From contig NZ_JAJSAQ010000002.1 in assembly GCF_021729075.1 (NCBI RefSeq), positions 496,001 through 560,000 of the forward strand: a stretch of 64,000 bases of DNA, in the 5' to 3' direction. The DNA comes from Microbulbifer guangxiensis (GTDB taxonomy: Bacteria; Pseudomonadota; Gammaproteobacteria; Pseudomonadales; Cellvibrionaceae). Position numbers and translations under genes: made by a program. Of the stretch, positions 19,960 to 43,072 are shown in pieces. The number at the start of each line of letters is the position of its first letter. The first letter of the stretch is position 1. The notes beneath the pieces are model-generated. The model did no database searches. It saw nothing but the letters and a program-made list of their open reading frames with translations, and was not told where the DNA came from.

Positions 19960-20391
19960 ATGGCCGCACGCAAGAAAGCCGCAGCTAAGAAAGCCCCCGC
20001 CAAGAAGACGGCAGCCAAAAAGGCTCCCGCCAAGAAGACCGCAGCCAAGGCTGCAGCGAAGCCGCGCAAGGTCACTGCGATCAAGGAGAAGTACACCAAG
20101 ACGCAGATCCTGAACGAGATCGCCGAGAACACCGAGCTGAGCCGCAAACAGGTCCAGTCCGTCCTCGACGAGCTGTCCAACGTGATCGAGGGTCACATCA
20201 AGAAGCGCGCAGTCGGTGAGTTCGCCCTGCCCGGCCTGATGAAGATCACCACCGTGAAGAAGCCGGCCAAGAAGGCCCGCAAGGGGATCAACCCCTTCAC
20301 CGGCGAAGAGACCGTGTTCAAGGCCAAGCCCGCCAGCATCCAGGTAAAGGTACGGCCGCTGAAGAAGCTGAAGGAAATGGCCGAAAACTGA
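19960..20391 (+). CDS. HU-family DNA-binding protein with histone-H1-like N-terminal tail
   Basis: A 143-residue nucleoid protein. Residues 1-45 are a Lys/Ala/Pro-rich tail built from repeats of the type KKAPAKKTAA, like histone H1 or AlgP-type tails. Residues about 50-140 form the HU/IHF fold (KTQILNEIAENTELSRKQVQSVLD, then ALPGLMKI and a long beta arm with INPFTGEE). Normal HU is about 90 residues without the tail. The tail should add nonspecific DNA binding and compaction. GGAAG lies 7 bases before the ATG. Followed at once by a terminator, so monocistronic. Confidence 0.93.
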   Translation: MAARKKAAAKKAPAKKTAAKKAPAKKTAAKAAAKPRKVTAIKEKYTKTQILNEIAENTELSRKQVQSVLDELSNVIEGHIKKRAVGEFALPGLMKITTVKKPAKKARKGINPFTGEETVFKAKPASIQVKVRPLKKLKEMAEN

Positions 20392-34023: not shown

Positions 34024-36201
34024 TCAGAACCGGTAACTGAAATTCAGTCCCCCCAGGGTATCCTCCGGGCGCATCAACAAGGTGCCGCTCACCTGCAACT
34101 GATCGGTGAGATTGAGCCCCACCATGGCACCGCCACCATTCTGGAAGTAGCCGGAGTTACGACTGTCGTAGGCCGCCAGGTTGGCATTGTTGCCGCGTAT
34201 GGACTTGATACCGATATTCACATCCTGCACGTCATCACCGTCATTGGCTTCCACCCAGACTTCACCGAACCAGCGCCATTCCGCCTCTTCCGGGGCGTTA
34301 TAGAAGAAACCCGCGCGATAGCGCCAGTATTCCCGGTTGATGCCGCCTACCCGCAATCCGAAAGGATCGACGGTCTCGCCATTGATGGCGCTGATATAGG
34401 TCAGGTCGTGGTTGGCCCGCTCGGTAAAGCGGTCGGAATCCACGTCGGTCCAGGCCAGGGACACGAACGGGCCGATCTGGCAGGGCAGCGCCGGCGCGGT
34501 GTCGAAACCGCCGCGCACAAACACACTGCTGGCGTCGCCCTCGGTGCTGGCCTGGATCTGGGTCGTATAGGGTCCGATATGAATGTGGCGGTTCACATCG
34601 TCGTAATCGATGTCGCTGTAGGTAAGACCACCGTCCACAAACCAGCGCTCATCATGCCAGCGGGCCAGCCAGCTGAAGTTGAGGTTATCCGCTTCCAGTG
34701 ACCAGTCCCGTGGCCGGTAATCAGAGCTGCTGTAGGACATCGCCAGCGCCCACTCAAAGTTATCGGTGGCGTTGAAGCTGAGACCGAAGAACGCATCCCA
34801 GGCACTGTCGTTGTAATTGGGCGCCGGACCGCCGCCCAGCTCGGTGGTGTTCCAGGCCGCACTGAAAAAGACCGTGGTAGTGGGCTCGCGGAAGCGCTGG
34901 GACAACAGGTGCTGGTCGATATTGGACTGGTGCGCGCGGGTGTTCTGATAGCCCAGGTCCGGTAGCAGGGCAAAGCCCACCGGTGCGCTCAGTACCGAGT
35001 AGTAGTAATCCCCCAGCGCTTCCTGTGTTGCCAGGGTCGGGTGGACACCGTCATTGAAATACAAGCGGTCTGCGTTCGGGGCACTGCCCACCTCGCTGAA
35101 CACCGGATCCGGGTTGGCGCAGGTGCCCGCGGCATAGCAGGTCGCCGCCTGGTCGATATCGGCAAAACCGAACAAAGCTGGTCTCTCCAGCGCCAGCGTC
35201 CCGAAGCCCTCGGTGTCCAGAATCAATACATTGCCGACAAACAGCATCTGGCCGCGCAATTCCTCATTGAACAGGGCTGTGCCGCTGTTGGCCGCTGAAA
35301 CCGCCGCTGGCCCCAGGTCGTTCATCAACGGTGTATTACCCACGCGTGGCGCGTTCGAAACCACCACATATTTTGCCCCGGCAGCACGCAGTTCCTCGGC
35401 AGCGGTCACGAGGAAAGTGGCGGCGCGCTCCATGGACGCGGGACTGATGGTACCGGCGATGGTGTTGGCAATGATGTCGTTGCCACCGCCCTGGAGAAAA
35501 TACAGGGTGTCGCTGGTCACGCTGTTGCGCTGCAGGAACCCCTGCCCCAGTGCGTTGGGCACTCCGGTGAGGCCGATACCGTTATTGGGGTCGTCCACCA
35601 GCGCTTGAAGCGCCGCGGGGTCGCCGAAGCTGGAGACCGCGGCGATCAGTTCCGCCGGCGGCAGGAAGGGACTCTCCCCCGCCGCCGGATCACAGATACC
35701 ATCTTCACCGCAGCGGCTGGAGTCCGGCAGGATGGTGGTGAGCCTGTTGTGATCGGCCAATGTCGTATCGGGAAAGAGACTGCGGAAGCGCTGCGGGCCC
35801 ACCACGTCCAGTAGAACATCCGCCGTCCGATTACCCCCCACTGCCCAGTTGCTGCCATTGGTCAGCACTGAACCGGTAATCTGCGCCACCAGCTCTTCCA
35901 CGCTGCCCGCCGCGGGATAGCAGGGCACCGCGCCACCAAAATCGGGACCGAGCCCGAAGCAGGACGGCGTCAGCGGTTCGAGCCCAAAGCGCTGGGCGGT
36001 AAAGCTGATGGCCGGCTGGCGAGGGGTTTCACCGTCGGGATCGTCACTGGTAAAAATACCCGCATTGCCGCTGTCGGAGAGAGAGTCCCCGAAGACGACG
36101 ACATTGCGGTAAAGCCCGGTGGTGACACTCTCGTCAGCGAAACTCGCCGACGCGCCAGCCAGCGCCACCGCCAGGCTGATGGCTCTTGCCGTGAACGCCA
36201 T
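34024..36201 (-). CDS. GDSL/SGNH esterase autotransporter
   Basis: A 725-residue EstA-like surface esterase. After a signal peptide (MAFTARAISLAVALAGASASFA) the SGNH domain begins with the nucleophile block NVVVFGDSLSDSGN; the GGGND block (LQGGGNDIIA) and the catalytic D-x-x-H block (NDGVHPT) follow near residue ~400. The last ~260 residues form an autotransporter beta-barrel ending in LGGLNFSYRF with terminal Phe. It should hydrolyse short-chain esters or lipids at the cell surface. ATG with AAGGAG 6 bases upstream. Its stop is ~180 bases from the divergent-side neighbour; no operon partner is seen. Confidence 0.93.
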   Translation of the reverse strand: MAFTARAISLAVALAGASASFADESVTTGLYRNVVVFGDSLSDSGNAGIFTSDDPDGETPRQPAISFTAQRFGLEPLTPSCFGLGPDFGGAVPCYPAAGSVEELVAQITGSVLTNGSNWAVGGNRTADVLLDVVGPQRFRSLFPDTTLADHNRLTTILPDSSRCGEDGICDPAAGESPFLPPAELIAAVSSFGDPAALQALVDDPNNGIGLTGVPNALGQGFLQRNSVTSDTLYFLQGGGNDIIANTIAGTISPASMERAATFLVTAAEELRAAGAKYVVVSNAPRVGNTPLMNDLGPAAVSAANSGTALFNEELRGQMLFVGNVLILDTEGFGTLALERPALFGFADIDQAATCYAAGTCANPDPVFSEVGSAPNADRLYFNDGVHPTLATQEALGDYYYSVLSAPVGFALLPDLGYQNTRAHQSNIDQHLLSQRFREPTTTVFFSAAWNTTELGGGPAPNYNDSAWDAFFGLSFNATDNFEWALAMSYSSSDYRPRDWSLEADNLNFSWLARWHDERWFVDGGLTYSDIDYDDVNRHIHIGPYTTQIQASTEGDASSVFVRGGFDTAPALPCQIGPFVSLAWTDVDSDRFTERANHDLTYISAINGETVDPFGLRVGGINREYWRYRAGFFYNAPEEAEWRWFGEVWVEANDGDDVQDVNIGIKSIRGNNANLAAYDSRNSGYFQNGGGAMVGLNLTDQLQVSGTLLMRPEDTLGGLNFSYRF

Positions 36202-36327
36202 AATGCACTCCTTTGCACAGGTCGCGATGGGGCAAGTATAGACACCGACCGAAACGCAATTTTCGCTGTCACTAGCGGCGGCAACAGCATCCTGCAAGGA
36301 ATAACAAACACGCCGACGGCACACCCG

Positions 36328-37788
36328 TCACTTCAGGTCGGCAAAGACCTCAATGGCTTTCTTGCGGGTTTCCTTGACGTCACAAATGGGCGGCGGATAC
36401 CCCTCCATTGGCGGTGGGCTGTGCACTTCTTTGTCGCTGAGCTTTTTTAGCTGCGGCAGAAAATGACGAATAAATTCGCCATGGCGATCAAATTTCTCGG
36501 ACTGGCTGTAGGGATTGAAAACACGAAAATACGGCACGGCGTCGGTGCCGGTGGACGCAGCCCATTGCCAACCGCCGTTGTTGGAGGCGAAATCGCCATC
36601 GATCAGCTGGTTCATGAAATAGCGTTCGCCCCAGCGCCAGTCGATCAGCAGGTTCTTGGTCAGGAAGGAGGCCACCACCATGCGCAGGCGGTTGTGCATC
36701 CATCCGGTCTGCTCCAGCTGCAGCATCGCGGCATCGACGATGGGCACTCCGGTCTTGCCCTTGCACCAGCGACGAAACGCCAGCTCGTCACCGGACCAGG
36801 GCACGCCCTCGGTTTCCGACTTGAACGGCTTGTGTTTGCACAGGCGGGGATAAGCCACGATCAGATGGGTGTAGAACTCCCGCCAGATCAGTTCGCCGAG
36901 CCAGCAGTCGACCCCCTCACTGCCGCCCTTCCAGCGCCCGCGGTTGCACTCGAGCGCCATGTGGGCACACTGGCGCACCGAAAGGGCGCCGGCATTCAGG
37001 TAGGGCGACAGGCGCGATGTACCATCGATCCCCGGGTAATCCCGCTCTTCTTCGTAGGCGTCGATCTGCTCCTCAAAGGCGTCGAGCCTTTTCAGAGCGG
37101 CCTTCTCGCCCGGCTCCCAGCCGAGCAGTTTGCCATCCTGATCAGCGACCGCGCTGTATCCCGCCACGGTTTTCGGAATCGTCTGGCGGAGGTTCTCCTC
37201 ACCCTTGATCTGCAACCAGCTGGGCCAGTCCACGGTGTCGCGCTTGCGTGGTGCGGGCAACGGCGAGAAGTCACCGCCGCCACACTGCTCGATAAATGCA
37301 CGCTTGAAGGGCGTGAAGACCTTGTAGGCATCGCCGCTATTGGTCTTGATCGCGCCCGGGGAGACCAGCGTGCGGTCGGTGCTGTACTCGATGGGAATCC
37401 CGATCTCTTTCAGGGCCTTGCGCACCCCCTCGTCCCGGTGCTGCTCGTTGACCGGATACTCCGCATTGGCGAATACCGCCGCCACCTCGAGTTTGCCGGC
37501 GATCTGTGCCATGGCCTCGGGCACCTGCTCGAAGCGTTTCAGTTCGAGGAAATAAAGCGGGATATTGCGCTCGGCAAGCGCCGCCTGCAATTCGCGCAGG
37601 CAGGCGAGGCGGAAGGCTACCAGGTTGTCACCCTCGTCATGGCTCTGCCAGGTCTCCGGACAGGCGATGAAAACACCCGCGACCGAATGGCAGGCCTGCA
37701 CAGCCCGATGCAACGCCGTGTTGTCATGGACGCGGAGGTCCGTGCGGAACCAGACCAGTCCGCGCTCGTGCTCGAACCTGTCACTCAT
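36328..37788 (-). CDS. phrB: Deoxyribodipyrimidine photolyase
   Basis: Repairs cyclobutane pyrimidine dimers with blue light. The 486-residue chain has the N-terminal antenna domain (GLVWFRTDLRVHDNTALHRA) and the FAD-binding helical domain (DGTSRLSPYLNAGALS, WMHNRLRMVVASFLTKNLLIDWRWGE, and NNGGWQWAASTGTDAVPYFRVFNP, the class I signature). Its ATG overlaps the stop of the upstream MerR-type gene, so translation is coupled to a putative light-responsive regulator. It ends the operon. Confidence 0.96.
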   Translation of the reverse strand: MSDRFEHERGLVWFRTDLRVHDNTALHRAVQACHSVAGVFIACPETWQSHDEGDNLVAFRLACLRELQAALAERNIPLYFLELKRFEQVPEAMAQIAGKLEVAAVFANAEYPVNEQHRDEGVRKALKEIGIPIEYSTDRTLVSPGAIKTNSGDAYKVFTPFKRAFIEQCGGGDFSPLPAPRKRDTVDWPSWLQIKGEENLRQTIPKTVAGYSAVADQDGKLLGWEPGEKAALKRLDAFEEQIDAYEEERDYPGIDGTSRLSPYLNAGALSVRQCAHMALECNRGRWKGGSEGVDCWLGELIWREFYTHLIVAYPRLCKHKPFKSETEGVPWSGDELAFRRWCKGKTGVPIVDAAMLQLEQTGWMHNRLRMVVASFLTKNLLIDWRWGERYFMNQLIDGDFASNNGGWQWAASTGTDAVPYFRVFNPYSQSEKFDRHGEFIRHFLPQLKKLSDKEVHSPPPMEGYPPPICDVKETRKKAIEVFADLK

Positions 37789-38747
37789 GAGAATTGCTCC
37801 CGCAGTTGTGCCAGTACCTCACCCGTGCTGCCATTCAGCAACCCGGTCTGGCCATGCTGTGCAAGCCTGCGCAGGTCCCGTTGCTGCAGTTCGACAAAGC
37901 CGCCGGCGAACCAGAGCGGCACCCGCAGCCCCTTGCGCGCCCGTTCCAGCCCGCTGCCAAGGATGGCCATCGGCAGTGCATGATGGCTGTAACAGACCAC
38001 GCCATCGAGGTGCAGATTCTTCTCGGCAAAGGCCAGCTCGCCGAGCTCCGCCTCGGGTGCAAGCCCGAAAACCTCGAACCCCATATCCGTCAGCGCCGCT
38101 TCGAACAGCTGGGCAAACACCCCCTGCTCGCTCCCGGGGAAAGTGAGCAGCAACAGCCGCCCCAGGGACGGGCCACGCTTGCGACCGCGCCGCCCGGCGC
38201 GCAGGTTCACTGCCAGCAGTTCGCCCAGCTGGCGCCAGAACAGGGCCTGGCCGATGCTGTTACCGTAGCGATGCTGGCGGCTCAATTTGCGGTGCAGTGG
38301 CGCCAGCCAGCGATCCAGCAGCAGTGGCAGGGGGTAGGCGGAAAGCAGCTGCTCCAGATGGCGCTCCAGTTCAGCCGTTTTCAGGTGTTCCACCAGCGAC
38401 TGGGTATCCGCCACCAGCTGTGTCCAGCTGTCCTCCGCCGGTGCGGGCTCATCCGGTTTTTCCAGTAGCGGCCTGACCTTGCCAATGGCGACACCGCGGG
38501 CCAGCCAGGACTGGATATCCCGGATCCTGACCACATCGCACTCGCTGTAGAGCCGGTGGCCCTTGCCGGTGCGCCCCGGAATCAACAGGCCGTAACGGCG
38601 CTCCCAGGCGCGCAGGGTCACCGGGTTCACCCCGGTGCGCTGGGCCACCTCTCCGATGGTCAGGCTGGGCGCGGCCGCCGGGGCTTCGGCGCGGTTGTCT
38701 GTGGGCTTCTCTGTCACTGCCGGTGTCGGTGTTTCTGTATCAGACAC
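37785..38747 (-). CDS. MerR-family regulator, LitR/CarH-like without B12 ligands
   Basis: A 320-residue protein. Residues ~29-100 are a MerR winged helix (LTIGEVAQRTGVNPVTLRAWERRYGLLIP). The rest aligns with the helix-bundle and Rossmann-like B12-binding region of CarH/LitR (LLLLTFPGSEQGVFAQLFEAAL, then LDGVVCYSHHALP and WFAGGFVELQQ). The usual B12 ligands (W-x9-E-H and E/D-x-H-x-x-G) are missing: the His position reads Gln. It therefore resembles the B12-free LitR class known in Pseudomonas that works with a separate light sensor. GTG start with GGAG upstream. It sits between the DUF523/DUF1722 gene and phrB, in one operon. Confidence 0.85.
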   Translation of the reverse strand: MSDTETPTPAVTEKPTDNRAEAPAAAPSLTIGEVAQRTGVNPVTLRAWERRYGLLIPGRTGKGHRLYSECDVVRIRDIQSWLARGVAIGKVRPLLEKPDEPAPAEDSWTQLVADTQSLVEHLKTAELERHLEQLLSAYPLPLLLDRWLAPLHRKLSRQHRYGNSIGQALFWRQLGELLAVNLRAGRRGRKRGPSLGRLLLLTFPGSEQGVFAQLFEAALTDMGFEVFGLAPEAELGELAFAEKNLHLDGVVCYSHHALPMAILGSGLERARKGLRVPLWFAGGFVELQQRDLRRLAQHGQTGLLNGSTGEVLAQLREQFS

Positions 38748-38780
38748 GGTATCTCTTCTCCGGGGAACATCTGCTGCGGA

Positions 38781-39758
38781 CTAGTGAAAGTCGCACAGCC
38801 CCATCTCGGCTGGCTCCGCGGCCAGCAGCATCTGGTTGTGAATGAAACTGTGGGGGGTACGGGGCAGGTAATGACGCAGCAGCGTCAATACTGCCGAGGC
38901 CGGCTTCAGTCCCCGCCGGTACTCGTCAATCAGCTGGGTGAGCTCCGCCTTTTCCTCTTTACTCAGATAGCCCTTCAGGTGCCCCTGACTGTGCATCAGG
39001 GCATTGGTCTTGTCCTTGCGGCTGGCCATGTGGGACAGGATCTCCATCATCCGCCCGCGCACCTCCAGCGCCAGCTCCCCCTGTTCGCGCCCTTTCGAGT
39101 TGGCCAGCACCTGGCCCAGGTCGCGGGTCTTCTGCTGGTGATGGGCCAGCAGCAGGTACTTGTAGGCGGTGAAGAACTCGATCAGGCGGGCCGGTTGCGG
39201 ATCTTCCTCGACGTAACGGAACCAGGCATCGTAGGCAAACACCCGGGTCAGAAAATTCTCGCGAATATCGTTGTTGTTGAGCCGCCCCACTTCCTCCATG
39301 GGCATGTCCGGGAAGCGATCCCGCAGGCGCTCGGCGTAGACACCCATACCGTCGCTGTCGTGGCCGTGCCCGTTGGGCAGGTAGCGGCGGATCCCCTTGA
39401 GGCCACAGCTGGGGGAGTTCTGCATAAAGATGTACCCACGCACCCCCTGCAGCTCCGGCACGACACTGTCGGCGTAATTCCGCAGGGGCTCGGTGACATC
39501 GAGTGTCGGGTCATCCACCCCCAGCACCCGTATCTCCGCCTCCGGGGACGGATCGCTCTTCACCAGCCGGATGGGCTGCCGCGGCACGCCCATGCCGATG
39601 GCGACCTCCGGGCAAAGCGGCACATACTCGAACACCCGCCCGAGCAATTCAGTACAGACCTTGCTGTGTTTGTGGCCGCCGTTATAGCGCACGGCGTCAC
39701 CCATGGCGCACTGACTGATGCCCACGGGGATCTTGCCGGTCAGCAACTCGATTTTCAT
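38781..39758 (-). CDS. DUF523-DUF1722 protein (YbgA-like)
   Basis: A 325-residue protein. The N-terminal DUF523 domain (KIPVGISQCAMGDAVRYNGGHK, VPLCPEVAIGMGVPRQPI, MQNSPSCGLKG) has conserved cysteines (C-x-M-G, L-C-P-E, S-P-S-C-G); the C-terminal DUF1722 domain (FFTAYKYLLLAHHQQKTRDLG) is the YbgA domain. In E. coli ybgA lies next to phrB, and the same link is seen here through the regulator gene. Function is unknown; the cysteines could hold a metal cluster, and a link to photolyase or its cofactor is only suggested by context. It is the first gene of the operon. ATG start. Confidence 0.9.
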   Translation of the reverse strand: MKIELLTGKIPVGISQCAMGDAVRYNGGHKHSKVCTELLGRVFEYVPLCPEVAIGMGVPRQPIRLVKSDPSPEAEIRVLGVDDPTLDVTEPLRNYADSVVPELQGVRGYIFMQNSPSCGLKGIRRYLPNGHGHDSDGMGVYAERLRDRFPDMPMEEVGRLNNNDIRENFLTRVFAYDAWFRYVEEDPQPARLIEFFTAYKYLLLAHHQQKTRDLGQVLANSKGREQGELALEVRGRMMEILSHMASRKDKTNALMHSQGHLKGYLSKEEKAELTQLIDEYRRGLKPASAVLTLLRHYLPRTPHSFIHNQMLLAAEPAEMGLCDFH

Positions 39759-39764
39759 CGCACT

Positions 39765-39836
39765 TGTACACCCTGAAAAACCTGTACAAGTTTTATAACC
39801 CCGAATCCCGAGTTGTACAAGAATAAATTTTGTATA
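39765..39836 (-). promoter_or_regulatory. Promoter of the DUF523-LitR-phrB operon with TGTACA operator repeats
   Basis: Minus strand: -35 TTGTAC (39820-39815), 17-base spacer, -10 TATAAA (39797-39792). Three TGTACA motifs occur at 39765-39770, 39783-39788 and 39814-39819, and a TGTATA at 39831-39836. The first two are separated by exactly 12 bases, the arrangement I recall for LitR sites, T(G/A)TACA-N12-TGTA(C/T)A. One motif overlies the -35 and the pair lies just downstream of the -10, positions suited to repression. The MerR gene two positions downstream is the natural ligand. Read from sequence; binding is inferred. Confidence 0.7.
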
Positions 39837-39994
39837 GGTAAGAGCCCCCTCCCTCTTGCCAGCGTTGCCAATGGTCTTCTGTAGCACCGGTGCGCCACTG
39901 GAATGTCCCCGAGGAGACAGTGACCCGGGCCGCGCTTGCGCCACGATGCCCCACCGCTACAATGCCAGACCTCCTGAGAGTCACGGACAAATCC

Positions 39995-42900
39995 ATGATC
40001 CCAGCACTACGTGAAGTCGATCCGGTTCAGGCCTTGTACCTGCAGTTCCTGCAGGCCCTGCGTGACGCGGGTTTTCGCGGCGACCTGAGCCCCACCTATG
40101 CAAACCGCACGGTGCTGGCCACAGATAACTCCATTTACCAGGTGCTGCCGCAGGCGGTGGTCTACCCCCGCGACAACCATGACCTGCAGCTGCTGGCGCA
40201 ACTCGCGGATAGGGAAGAGTTCCACCAGGTAGTGCTGTCGCCCCGCGGTGGCGGCACCGGCACCAATGGTCAGTCCCTGACCGACGGCCTGGTGGTGGAC
40301 ATTTCCCGGCATATGAACCGGATTCTCGAGATCAATGCAGAGGAGCGCTGGGTGCGGGTGCAGGCTGGCGTGGTGAAAGACCAGCTCAACGCCGCGCTCA
40401 AGCCGCACGGGCTCTTCTTTGCCCCGGAACTTTCCACCAGCAATCGCGCCACCATCGGCGGCATGATCAACACCGACGCCTCCGGCCAGGGATCCTGCGT
40501 CTACGGCAAGACCCGCGACCACGTGCTGGAACTGTCCACCGTGCTGCTCGGCGGAGAGCTGTGGCACTCCGCGCCGGTCAGCGACGACAAACTGGCCCAA
40601 ATCGCTGAGCGAGATGGTCGCGCCGGCCGTGTGCACCGGGTCTGTGACGAGATTGCCCGGGACAAGGCCGAGCTGATCGAACAACGCTTCCCCAAGCTCA
40701 ACCGCTGCCTGACCGGCTATGACCTGGCCCATCTGCGTGAAGGTGACGGAAGGAACGCAGGGAACGCCGCGCAATTCAACCTGAACAGTGTGCTCTGCGG
40801 CTCCGAAGGCACCCTCGGCTTTATCGCCGAGGCCAGGCTCAATGTGTTGCCAATCCCCAAATGCGTCGCACTAGTGAACCTCAAATACGACAACTTCCAG
40901 GATGCCCTGCGGGACGCCAAGGACCTGATGGCCGCCGGCCCCACGTCTATCGAGACGGTGGACAGCAAGGTACTGCAGCTGGCCATGGCGGATATCGTCT
41001 GGCACAGCGTCAGTGAGTTTTTCCCCGCCGATGAGCGCCCGGTGCGCGGCATCAACCTGGTGGAGTACACGGCAGATTCCGAGCAGGTTCTGGAAGAGGC
41101 CCTGCGTGGCTTTACCGACCTGATCGACAGCGCCGTCGGCCAGCCGGGCAAGAGCTTCGGCTACTCCATTGCCCGCGGGCACGACGAGGTCAACCGCATC
41201 TGGGCCATGCGCAAGCGGGCGGTTGGCCTGCTGGGCAATGCCGAGGGGGAAAAGCGTCCCATCCCGTTCGTGGAAGACACCTGCGTACCGCCGGAGCATC
41301 TGGCGGACTTCATCGCCGAGTTCCGCGCGGTGCTCGATGAGGCAGGTCTGGAATACGGCATGTTCGGCCATGTCGACGCCGGCGTTCTGCACGTGCGCCC
41401 GGCCATCGATATGAAGGATCCGGCGCAGGCGGCCATGATCCGGCCCATTACCGACAAGGTGGTGGCGCTGACGCAGAAGTACAAAGGCCTGCTGTGGGGC
41501 GAACACGGCAAGGGGGTACGCTCGGAATACGCGCCGGAATTCTTCGGCGAGCTGTACGCTGAACTGCAAAAGGTCAAGGCGGCCTTCGACCCCCGCAACC
41601 AGCTGAACCCCGGCAAGATCGCCACCCCCAGTCGCGCCTCCGGGCTACTCAAGGTGGATGCTGTGCCCACCCGTGGCGAGCGGGACCGGCAGATCCCGGT
41701 GCAGGTCTGGGACGGTTACAGCGAGGGGGTGCACTGCAATGGTAACGGTGCCTGTTTCAACTGGGACCCGGATTCCGCCATGTGCCCCTCCTACAAGGCC
41801 ACCCGGGAGCGGATCCATTCCCCGAAGGGGCGCGCCTCGCTGATGCGGGAGTGGCTGCGACTGCTCAGCGCCCAGGGCGTGGACGCGGTGGAAGCCAGCC
41901 GCAAATTCCGCGAGCGTTCCTTCTTTGTGGGCCTGCCCGGCCGGATCAAGAATTCTCTCGCCCGGGCGCGGGGCGAATACGACTTCAACCACGAAGTGAA
42001 CGAGGCCATGCAGGGCTGCCTCGGCTGCAAGTCCTGCGTCGGCCAGTGTCCCATCAAGGTGGACGTGCCGGAGTTTCGCGCCAAGTTCCTGGAGCTTTAC
42101 TACAGCCGCTACCTGCGGCCACTGAAGGATTACTTTGTTGGCGCCCTTGAGTTCATCGTGCCACACCTGTCGCGGGCGCCGCAGCTGTACAACTGGCCGC
42201 TGAAGTTTGCGCCGACACGCTGGCTCCTCGAGCGGGGGCTCGGGCTGGCGGACAGCCCGGCACTGTCGCGCAAAAGCCTGCGCGAAGAGATGGAGGAGAT
42301 GGGGGTTCCCCTGGCCCGCCCCGCCACCATCGCGGCCCTGGGTCCGGGACAGCGCAATCGCGCGGTCATCATCGTGCAGGATGCATTCACCAGCTACTTC
42401 GATGCCCAGGTGGTGGCGGACGCACTGCGACTGCTGAAACAGCTGGATTTCTATCCGCTGGTGGCGCCCTTCCGCGCCAACGGCAAGCCCCTGCACGTGC
42501 ACGGCTTCCTCGGGCCGTTCCGCCGTGTGGCCCAGGCCAACAGCGAGCTGCTGCAGGAACTGGCCGCCAGCGGGATCCCCCTGGTGGGCATCGACCCCTC
42601 AATGACCCTCACCTACCGCTCCGAATACCGCAAGGTGCTCGGTGACGGCGCCCCGGCGGTGCAACTGCTGCAGGAGTGGCTCGTGAGCCAGCGCGATCAC
42701 CTGGAACGACAGCGGCCGCGGGTCAGCGCCGGCAGCTTCCGCCTGCTGCCCCACTGCAGCGAGCAGACTAACGCCACTGCCTCGCTGAAAGACTGGCAGG
42801 CCGTGTTTGCGGCCCTGGGGCTGGAATTGCACACCGAGAGCCTCGGCTGCTGCGGCATGGCCGGTACTTATGGGCACGAGACCGCCAACAAGGAGACGTC

Positions 42901-43072
42901 CCGCACCATCTTCCAGCAGTCCTGGGCCCCGCGGCTGAATGGCGACAACCAGTCACTACTCGCCAGCGGCTACTCCTGCCGCTGCCAGAGCAAACGCTTT
43001 GCGGGTGTAACCCTGCGCCATCCGCTGCAGGGATTGCTGGCACAAATGGCCGATTCGCGGTTTACTGAGTGA
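39995..43072 (+). CDS. ydiJ: D-2-hydroxyglutarate dehydrogenase YdiJ-type FAD/Fe-S flavoprotein
   Basis: A 1025-residue two-part enzyme. The N-terminal FAD domain (PCMH type, PRGGGTGTNGQSLTDG; NRATIGGMINTDASGQGS; C-terminal cap with YGMFGHVDAGVLHVRP) is followed by Fe-S modules: CLGCKSCVGQCP near residue ~700 and the CCG-type cluster domain near the end (LGCCGMAGTYGHE, GYSCRCQ). It closely resembles E. coli YdiJ along its length, which oxidises D-2-hydroxyglutarate, passing electrons to the respiratory chain. The ATG giving MIPALREV was chosen by comparison; an upstream reading adds 35 residues of no family character. Divergent from the photolyase operon. Confidence 0.93.
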   Translation: MIPALREVDPVQALYLQFLQALRDAGFRGDLSPTYANRTVLATDNSIYQVLPQAVVYPRDNHDLQLLAQLADREEFHQVVLSPRGGGTGTNGQSLTDGLVVDISRHMNRILEINAEERWVRVQAGVVKDQLNAALKPHGLFFAPELSTSNRATIGGMINTDASGQGSCVYGKTRDHVLELSTVLLGGELWHSAPVSDDKLAQIAERDGRAGRVHRVCDEIARDKAELIEQRFPKLNRCLTGYDLAHLREGDGRNAGNAAQFNLNSVLCGSEGTLGFIAEARLNVLPIPKCVALVNLKYDNFQDALRDAKDLMAAGPTSIETVDSKVLQLAMADIVWHSVSEFFPADERPVRGINLVEYTADSEQVLEEALRGFTDLIDSAVGQPGKSFGYSIARGHDEVNRIWAMRKRAVGLLGNAEGEKRPIPFVEDTCVPPEHLADFIAEFRAVLDEAGLEYGMFGHVDAGVLHVRPAIDMKDPAQAAMIRPITDKVVALTQKYKGLLWGEHGKGVRSEYAPEFFGELYAELQKVKAAFDPRNQLNPGKIATPSRASGLLKVDAVPTRGERDRQIPVQVWDGYSEGVHCNGNGACFNWDPDSAMCPSYKATRERIHSPKGRASLMREWLRLLSAQGVDAVEASRKFRERSFFVGLPGRIKNSLARARGEYDFNHEVNEAMQGCLGCKSCVGQCPIKVDVPEFRAKFLELYYSRYLRPLKDYFVGALEFIVPHLSRAPQLYNWPLKFAPTRWLLERGLGLADSPALSRKSLREEMEEMGVPLARPATIAALGPGQRNRAVIIVQDAFTSYFDAQVVADALRLLKQLDFYPLVAPFRANGKPLHVHGFLGPFRRVAQANSELLQELAASGIPLVGIDPSMTLTYRSEYRKVLGDGAPAVQLLQEWLVSQRDHLERQRPRVSAGSFRLLPHCSEQTNATASLKDWQAVFAALGLELHTESLGCCGMAGTYGHETANKETSRTIFQQSWAPRLNGDNQSLLASGYSCRCQSKRFAGVTLRHPLQGLLAQMADSRFTE

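Follow-up and report, generated by a model that had tools for sequence, protein, structure and literature searches.

The 64,000-nt stretch of the Microbulbifer guangxiensis genome analysed here, which we call the window, contains on its minus strand a three-gene operon consisting of rudS (38781–39758), litR (37785–38747) and phrB (36328–37788), the last two of which overlap by 4 bases (37785–37788). A preliminary description of the same DNA had seen a single operon of a DUF523-DUF1722 gene, a MerR-type regulator gene and an overlapping phrB, and both the genes and their arrangement are confirmed and conserved: in all 20 regions compared from the same genus, the three genes stand together as a unit next to one and the same divergent gene, and the 4-base overlap of litR and phrB recurs in 17 of these operons, with the other three hinging on automatic start-codon choice. 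The rudS product carries a TudS domain fused to DUF1722 (Pfam PF04463 and PF08349) and is a predicted tRNA 4-thiouridine eraser; such TudS-DUF1722 fusions are known as RudS, a tRNA 4-thiouridine desulfidase with assigned residue roles (PMC11417400). Cys17, Arg24, Cys49, Glu51 and Arg60 are invariant in all 92 aligned RudS proteins, and the third cluster cysteine lies within an SPSC motif at residues 115–118, giving the protein both the domain fusion and the three cluster cysteines that mark RudS. The phrB product (PF00875 and PF03441) scores 522.7 bits against the NCBIfam equivalog model NF007955 (PRK10674), above the cut-off of 506, which identifies it as a class I cyclobutane pyrimidine dimer (CPD) photolyase. 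Between the two, litR encodes a MerR-family, class II LitR-like protein with a CarH fold that lacks B12 ligands.

Upstream of the rudS start codon (ATG at 39758), we located three TGTACA hexamers at 39765, 39783 and 39814 and one TGTATA at 39831–39836, two of them spaced by exactly 12 bases, as had been described. They combine into two operators on the minus strand: a downstream operator, TGTACA-N12-TGTACA (39765–39788), which lies over the predicted transcription start (~39785) and the leader, and an upstream operator, TATACA-N11-TGTACA (39814–39836), which covers all but the first base of the −35 hexamer TTGTAC (39815–39820). The −10 hexamer TATAAA (39792–39797) follows after a 17-base spacer, a length that creates no need for MerR-type activation. 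This promoter had been called consensus-like, which suits the −10 hexamer and the spacer more than the −35 hexamer, where TTGTAC agrees with TTGACA at only 3 of 6 bases; a consensus promoter scan that required T as the last −10 base did not list it. We regard the promoter as supported because TTGTAY-N17-TATAA stands upstream of RudS in 20/20 own-genus operons, and these are the only 20 matches on both strands of the 482,436 bases of own-genus regions. In the window, T(G/A)TACA-N12-TGTA(C/T)A matches once, at the downstream operator, and its N11 version once, at the upstream operator, each against 0 of 100 shuffles, and lone TGTACA hexamers are mildly enriched (10 vs 4.9 ± 2.4, a count matched by 3 of 100 shuffles). 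Across the genus, a strict upstream operator (N11–12) precedes 19 of the 20 operons, beginning 70–79 bases ahead of the RudS start codon, and a strict downstream operator (N11–12) at about −30 is found in 10 of 11 operons of the near subclade, which comprises the genomes closest to that of the window, and in none of the nine of the distant subclade.

The association between operon and operator extends well beyond the genus. A search for the regulator in 293 genomes of the order (E ≤ 1e-15) and 130 genomes of the family recovered it in 77 and 46, respectively, and from these we sampled 80 order regions, representing 72 of the 77 LitR genomes (G159, G179, G239 and G281 were not fetched, and G000 is the window genome), as well as 40 further family regions, every family entry except G316 being either fetched or already included. 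RudS, LitR and PhrB occur together in 51/80 order regions and 37/40 family regions. In 1.02 Mb of LitR regions (the 80 order regions plus 15 kb of the window), T(G/A)TACA-N12-TGTA(C/T)A occurs 58 times, compared with a mean of 0.15 and a largest count of 1 in 20 mononucleotide shuffles, and the counts by spacer length peak at 12 (N10, 9; N11, 22; N12, 58; N13, 10; N14, 6). Of the sampled RudS genes, 35 of 55 from the order and 37 of 40 from the family have an N10–13 operator in the 300 bp preceding them, and some loci without a strict operator show half-sites by eye; among random 300-bp windows the figure is 89 of 4000, true operators included. A different layout occurs in family f23 (L143, L146–L150, L154, L157, L164, L169 and L172), where LitR is divergent from RudS-PhrB and has a very different C-terminus; in the f23 loci that we printed, several TGTACA or TATACA half-sites crowd the region upstream of LitR.

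The AlphaFold model of the LitR-like protein (mean predicted local distance difference test score 89.9) has three domains, a MerR helix-turn-helix (HTH), a four-helix bundle and a Rossmann-like domain, and matches both CarH and the CarH cobalamin domain. Full-length CarH is the top sequence and fold match and the best solved relative, which would favour a CarH-type sensor in which LitR, bound to adenosylcobalamin, is itself released by light. We consider this extremely improbable, and the sequence largely refutes it: the position of the B12-ligating histidine is occupied by Gln208, which 19 or more of the 20 own-genus proteins share; the motifs Wx9EH and ExHxxG, which distinguish CarH and class I LitR, are absent; and the Pfam B12-binding domain gives no match at E ≤ 0.01. 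The histidine and the two motifs are the B12-binding residues of CarH. Because they are missing from an otherwise CarH-like fold, the regulator is, judged by its residues, not a B12 photosensor, so that of the preliminary label, CarH/LitR-type, the LitR part stands and the B12-sensing CarH part does not. Among 83 LitR entries, one, L158 from genome G162, has both B12 motifs, and a Wx9EH match near the C-terminus of L153 looks like a chance occurrence.

By its sequence features, the protein instead resembles a class II LitR: it joins a MerR HTH to a degenerate CarH-like C-terminus without B12 ligands, and operators lie at the −35 and in the leader of its own operon, with N11 in the upstream site and N12 in the downstream one. 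For comparison we aligned 44 LitR rows, with L292 (internal stop codon) and L294 removed, and built a tree that excluded rows outside 270–370 amino acids or with an internal stop. The 20 own-genus LitRs form one clade (support 100) nested in a 102-row group (98) that includes rows beside short LOV genes, in what is a quick, midpoint-rooted tree with 36 of 118 inner branches open and with no named PplR, PmlR or class III–V sequence included. The L292 gene (5135–6103), from the same-family genome G340, reads as a LitR gene with one in-frame stop codon.

The operators of the window have a direct counterpart in P. mendocina, where footprinting of a class II LitR revealed two TGTACA-N12-TGTACA sites, one (Site 1) over the −35 and the other (Site 2) between the start site and the ATG, and where phrB is induced ~27–33 fold by light (PMC9758184). 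The LitR-type motifs noted in the preliminary description have the same two-site arrangement, and the autorepression in the dark that it envisaged fits the position of the operators over the −35 and the start. This two-site geometry is therefore consistent with autorepression of the operon, which we regard as well supported on these grounds; light induction is likely, and like dark repression is something we infer from characterised homologues. Taken as a whole, the locus is probably an autoregulated operon of the class II LitR type, repressed in the dark and relieved by light. In the dark, the LitR-like protein would occupy both operators, at the −35 and the start site, and block RNA polymerase at its own promoter. 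Blue or UV-A light would lift this repression and allow RudS, the CPD photolyase and further LitR to be produced at the same time. RudS would then strip 4-thiouridine, which absorbs near-UV and is photosensitive, from tRNA, and PhrB would repair pyrimidine dimers.

What would admit light to such a switch is less clear-cut. In Pseudomonas, class II LitR receives its light signal from a short LOV protein, which upon illumination binds the regulator and prevents it from binding DNA (PMC9758184). We found no such protein in the window genome: nothing matched at E ≤ 1e-12 a profile of 14 short LOVs, which were taken from LitR regions and so favour their own class, and the two PAS_9 matches are, by reading, a histidine kinase and a GGDEF/EAL-type protein, neither of them a LOV protein. 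Of the claim that the locus is a self-contained light-responsive operon, the operators, the operon, the LitR-like regulator and the photolyase hold, whereas the sensor had been assumed and the characterised short LOV was not found in the genome. We consider it very unlikely that light is sensed here by LitR-bound adenosylcobalamin or by a short LOV protein; the sensor would be either another photoreceptor acting in trans, a product of the operon, or a light-generated signal.

Across the order, short LOV proteins are associated with LitR, judging by presence lists that were entered by hand. A short LOV is present in 38 of 293 order genomes (E ≤ 6.5e-57, with a clear gap to the next match at 1.2e-39), and all 38 carry LitR (Fisher p 1.6e-26, nominal since the genomes are not independent). 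Conversely, 39 of the 77 LitR genomes lack a detectable short LOV, and their operators are kept about equally well: an operator lies within 300 bp upstream of RudS at 20 of 33 loci in genomes without a short LOV and at 15 of 22 in genomes with one. In the tree, LitRs from genomes lacking a short LOV fill whole clades (f40 and f23), with scattered cases among LOV-bearing relatives. With half of the sampled order LitR genomes (39/77) lacking a detectable short LOV but operon and operators still present there, class II LitR is probably also controlled by some second route. In the literature surveyed, mostly at the level of listings, we met no report of a LOV-less class II LitR, and P. aeruginosa has been reported to be without LOV proteins (PMC8508746). 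In the same-family genome G306, a second LitR lies beside a short LOV (L302, 4237–8179); this short LOV shares 83% identity with the one in L122, from a genome of family f18, which suggests transfer of the LOV module. We also tried a DNA pattern for NCRFLQ as a LOV detector and dropped it, as a reversed control hit many genomes and short LOVs with DCRFLQ beside LitR were missed; its one match in G169, a genome of the same genus, is not in an open NCRFLQ frame and is unsupported by the LOV profile.

The window genome does encode one stand-alone BLUF protein, of ~170 amino acids (contig C1, ~718400; L009 5395–5907), and a BLUF protein could in principle be the blue-light sensor, taking over the short LOV's role as anti-repressor of LitR. 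There is precedent in E. coli, where BluF antagonises the MerR-like BluR (PMC3509220), and within the genus 9 of 20 LitR genomes have a BLUF match, all of them in the near subclade (9/11 vs 0/9, a hand tally). This pattern may reflect species phylogeny, however, as the gene downstream of the operon splits in the same way, and BLUF is without a match in 11 of the 20 LitR genomes of the genus, as is LitR in eight own-genus genomes with BLUF. In six of the eight near-subclade relatives fetched, BLUF has the same neighbours, namely TPR, lipase-like and MscS-like genes (named by eye), and none of 21 fetched BLUF regions contains an N10–13 operator. BLUF is not associated with LitR across the order (24/77 LitR-positive vs 75/216 LitR-negative genomes, p 0.67), and among the 39 LitR genomes without a short LOV it is present in 14 and absent from 25. 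Nor is it linked to the operon in the window genome, and neither measure points to a pair like BluR/BluF; the sole linkage in 80 order regions is in the distant genome G015 (L120, 6192–8476), where a BLUF gene immediately precedes RudS-LitR in the same orientation, and this genome has a short LOV too, at the edge of the region. BLUF as a general replacement for LOV was rejected by the co-occurrence counts (293 order and 130 family genomes) together with the BLUF neighbourhoods. We keep it as a possible sensor for the window species only, and even there consider the BLUF explanation rather improbable.

A further explanation is that the operon's own products sense light, through the flavin adenine dinucleotide (FAD) or antenna of the photolyase, the [4Fe-4S] cluster of RudS, or a non-B12 chromophore on LitR. 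The unity of RudS, LitR and PhrB throughout the genus, with its frequent LitR-PhrB overlap, would suit such an arrangement, although PhrB is the regulated product and linkage is expected of it without any sensing role. The only other conserved neighbour in the same orientation, in 11 of 20 regions, is a GDSL-lipase autotransporter gene and not a photoreceptor, and a comparison of gene clusters shared by six or more of the 20 own-genus regions found no photosensor-like gene conserved beside the operon. The short-LOV test within the genus covered seven genomes, including two of the 20 LitR carriers, the window genome and G169; G169, a single-contig assembly with a rating of complete, retains both operon and upstream operator and has neither BLUF nor a LOV-profile match at E ≤ 1e-12. 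Likewise, 22 of the 77 order LitR genomes show no short LOV, BLUF or multi-domain LOV (E ≤ 1e-20), in a search that did not extend to phytochromes and other photoreceptors, and one of the 22 is G162, whose LitR keeps the B12 motifs. On this evidence we regard sensing by the operon's own products as possible but improbable. The narrower proposal that lineages lacking both short LOV and BLUF have a self-sensing operon, in which the photolyase or another product lifts LitR from its own promoter, seems to us quite unlikely; if true, one three-gene unit would combine sensor, switch and repair enzymes.

LitR might instead answer photo-oxidative or redox signals rather than a photoreceptor, as has been proposed for Vibrio cholerae VCA0056. 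We hold this to be unlikely: the C-terminal positions conserved in 19 or more of the 20 own-genus LitR proteins include no cysteine, and VCA0056 is set beside LitR by description only, the LitRs of Vibrio being mainly class IV (PMC9758184).

Several observations weigh against an autoregulated operon relieved by light. The known light input was not found, which would allow for a loss or replacement of light induction. A strict operator is absent within 300 bp of 20/55 RudS loci in the order and 3/40 in the family, and the operon is patchy within the genus, where 20 LitR-positive genomes stand against at least 20 LitR-negative ones among those listed. The window genome contains a single strict N12 operator, and as the reversed-pattern control also gives one match, this number is by itself uninformative and proves nothing; the case rests on where the operators lie and how well they are conserved. 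The preliminary description had looked to another copy of the motif elsewhere in the genome, and a scan confined to the strict N12 spacing found none; by this test the circuit would be a single-target switch. An N14 search for other targets came back empty and is uninformative, and the DASH-type photolyase and BLUF regions of the window genome contain no strict operator and, with up to three mismatches, no more matches than expected by chance. From the failure to find the known sensor and the patchy distribution it might follow that the operon is still repressed by LitR but is no longer regulated by light, being either responsive to another signal or leaky. The comparable retention of operators at RudS loci with and without a short LOV speaks against this, and we consider it doubtful. 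Relief by light of an autorepressed class II LitR-type operon remains the reading we prefer.

Divergent from the operon, the window contains an FAD-linked oxidase/4Fe-4S gene (39890–43072, by Pfam), which is a fixed neighbour of the own-genus LitR operons in 20/20 regions, despite the patchy occurrence of the operon across the genus. Directly 3′ of phrB on the same strand lies the GDSL-lipase autotransporter gene (34024–36324), which follows the operon in 11/11 near-subclade genomes and 0/9 distant ones. Elsewhere in the window genome (contig C4, ~161600; L010 5636–8500), a second photolyase-family gene encodes a protein of 436 amino acids that is DASH-like by eye and is followed by a gene for a 511-amino-acid photolyase-related protein of the DPRP family (PF04244), with no strict operator nearby. 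The window also contains a short tandem array with units of 30/15 bases at 19971–20049.

The operon is of a known and conserved kind, and its interest lies in being a LOV-less variant that exposes a gap in what is understood of light sensing by this repressor class; an answer would show how bacteria without a LOV partner time the photoprotection of DNA and tRNA. Its closest counterparts are the class II LitR/short LOV systems of Pseudomonas (PplR1-3 with PpSB1/2-LOV and PmlR1/2 with PmSB-LOV; PMC9758184), which it resembles in regulator type, in operators over the −35 and the leader, in a target operon containing LitR and phrB, and in the lack of B12 dependence. Its operator layout matches that of P. 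mendocina, except that the upstream site is N11. The window genome differs from these systems in having a single LitR and no short LOV that we could find, and in having one strict N12 operator, whereas 19 light-inducible genes have been reported to be under PplR control in P. putida. The same domain fusion and catalytic Cys, Glu and Arg positions are found in the light-linked RudS operons of PMC11417400, where a PhrB-LitR-RudS operon is named; class II LitR is called adenosyl-B12-dependent there, against which both the window sequence and PMC9758184 speak. Compared with CarH and class I LitR of Thermus thermophilus, the window protein has the same three-domain fold but has lost the B12-ligand and Wx9EH residues. 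In Vibrio cholerae VCA0056-VCA0057, a MerR-like gene lies in a predicted operon with phr that is induced by blue light, with reactive oxygen proposed as the signal (PMC5241685), although Vibrio LitRs are mainly class IV and the likeness is one of description. Finally, E. coli BluR/BluF (PMC3509220) offers an analogous logic with a different target operon, in that a MerR-like repressor is relieved by a separate blue-light flavoprotein.

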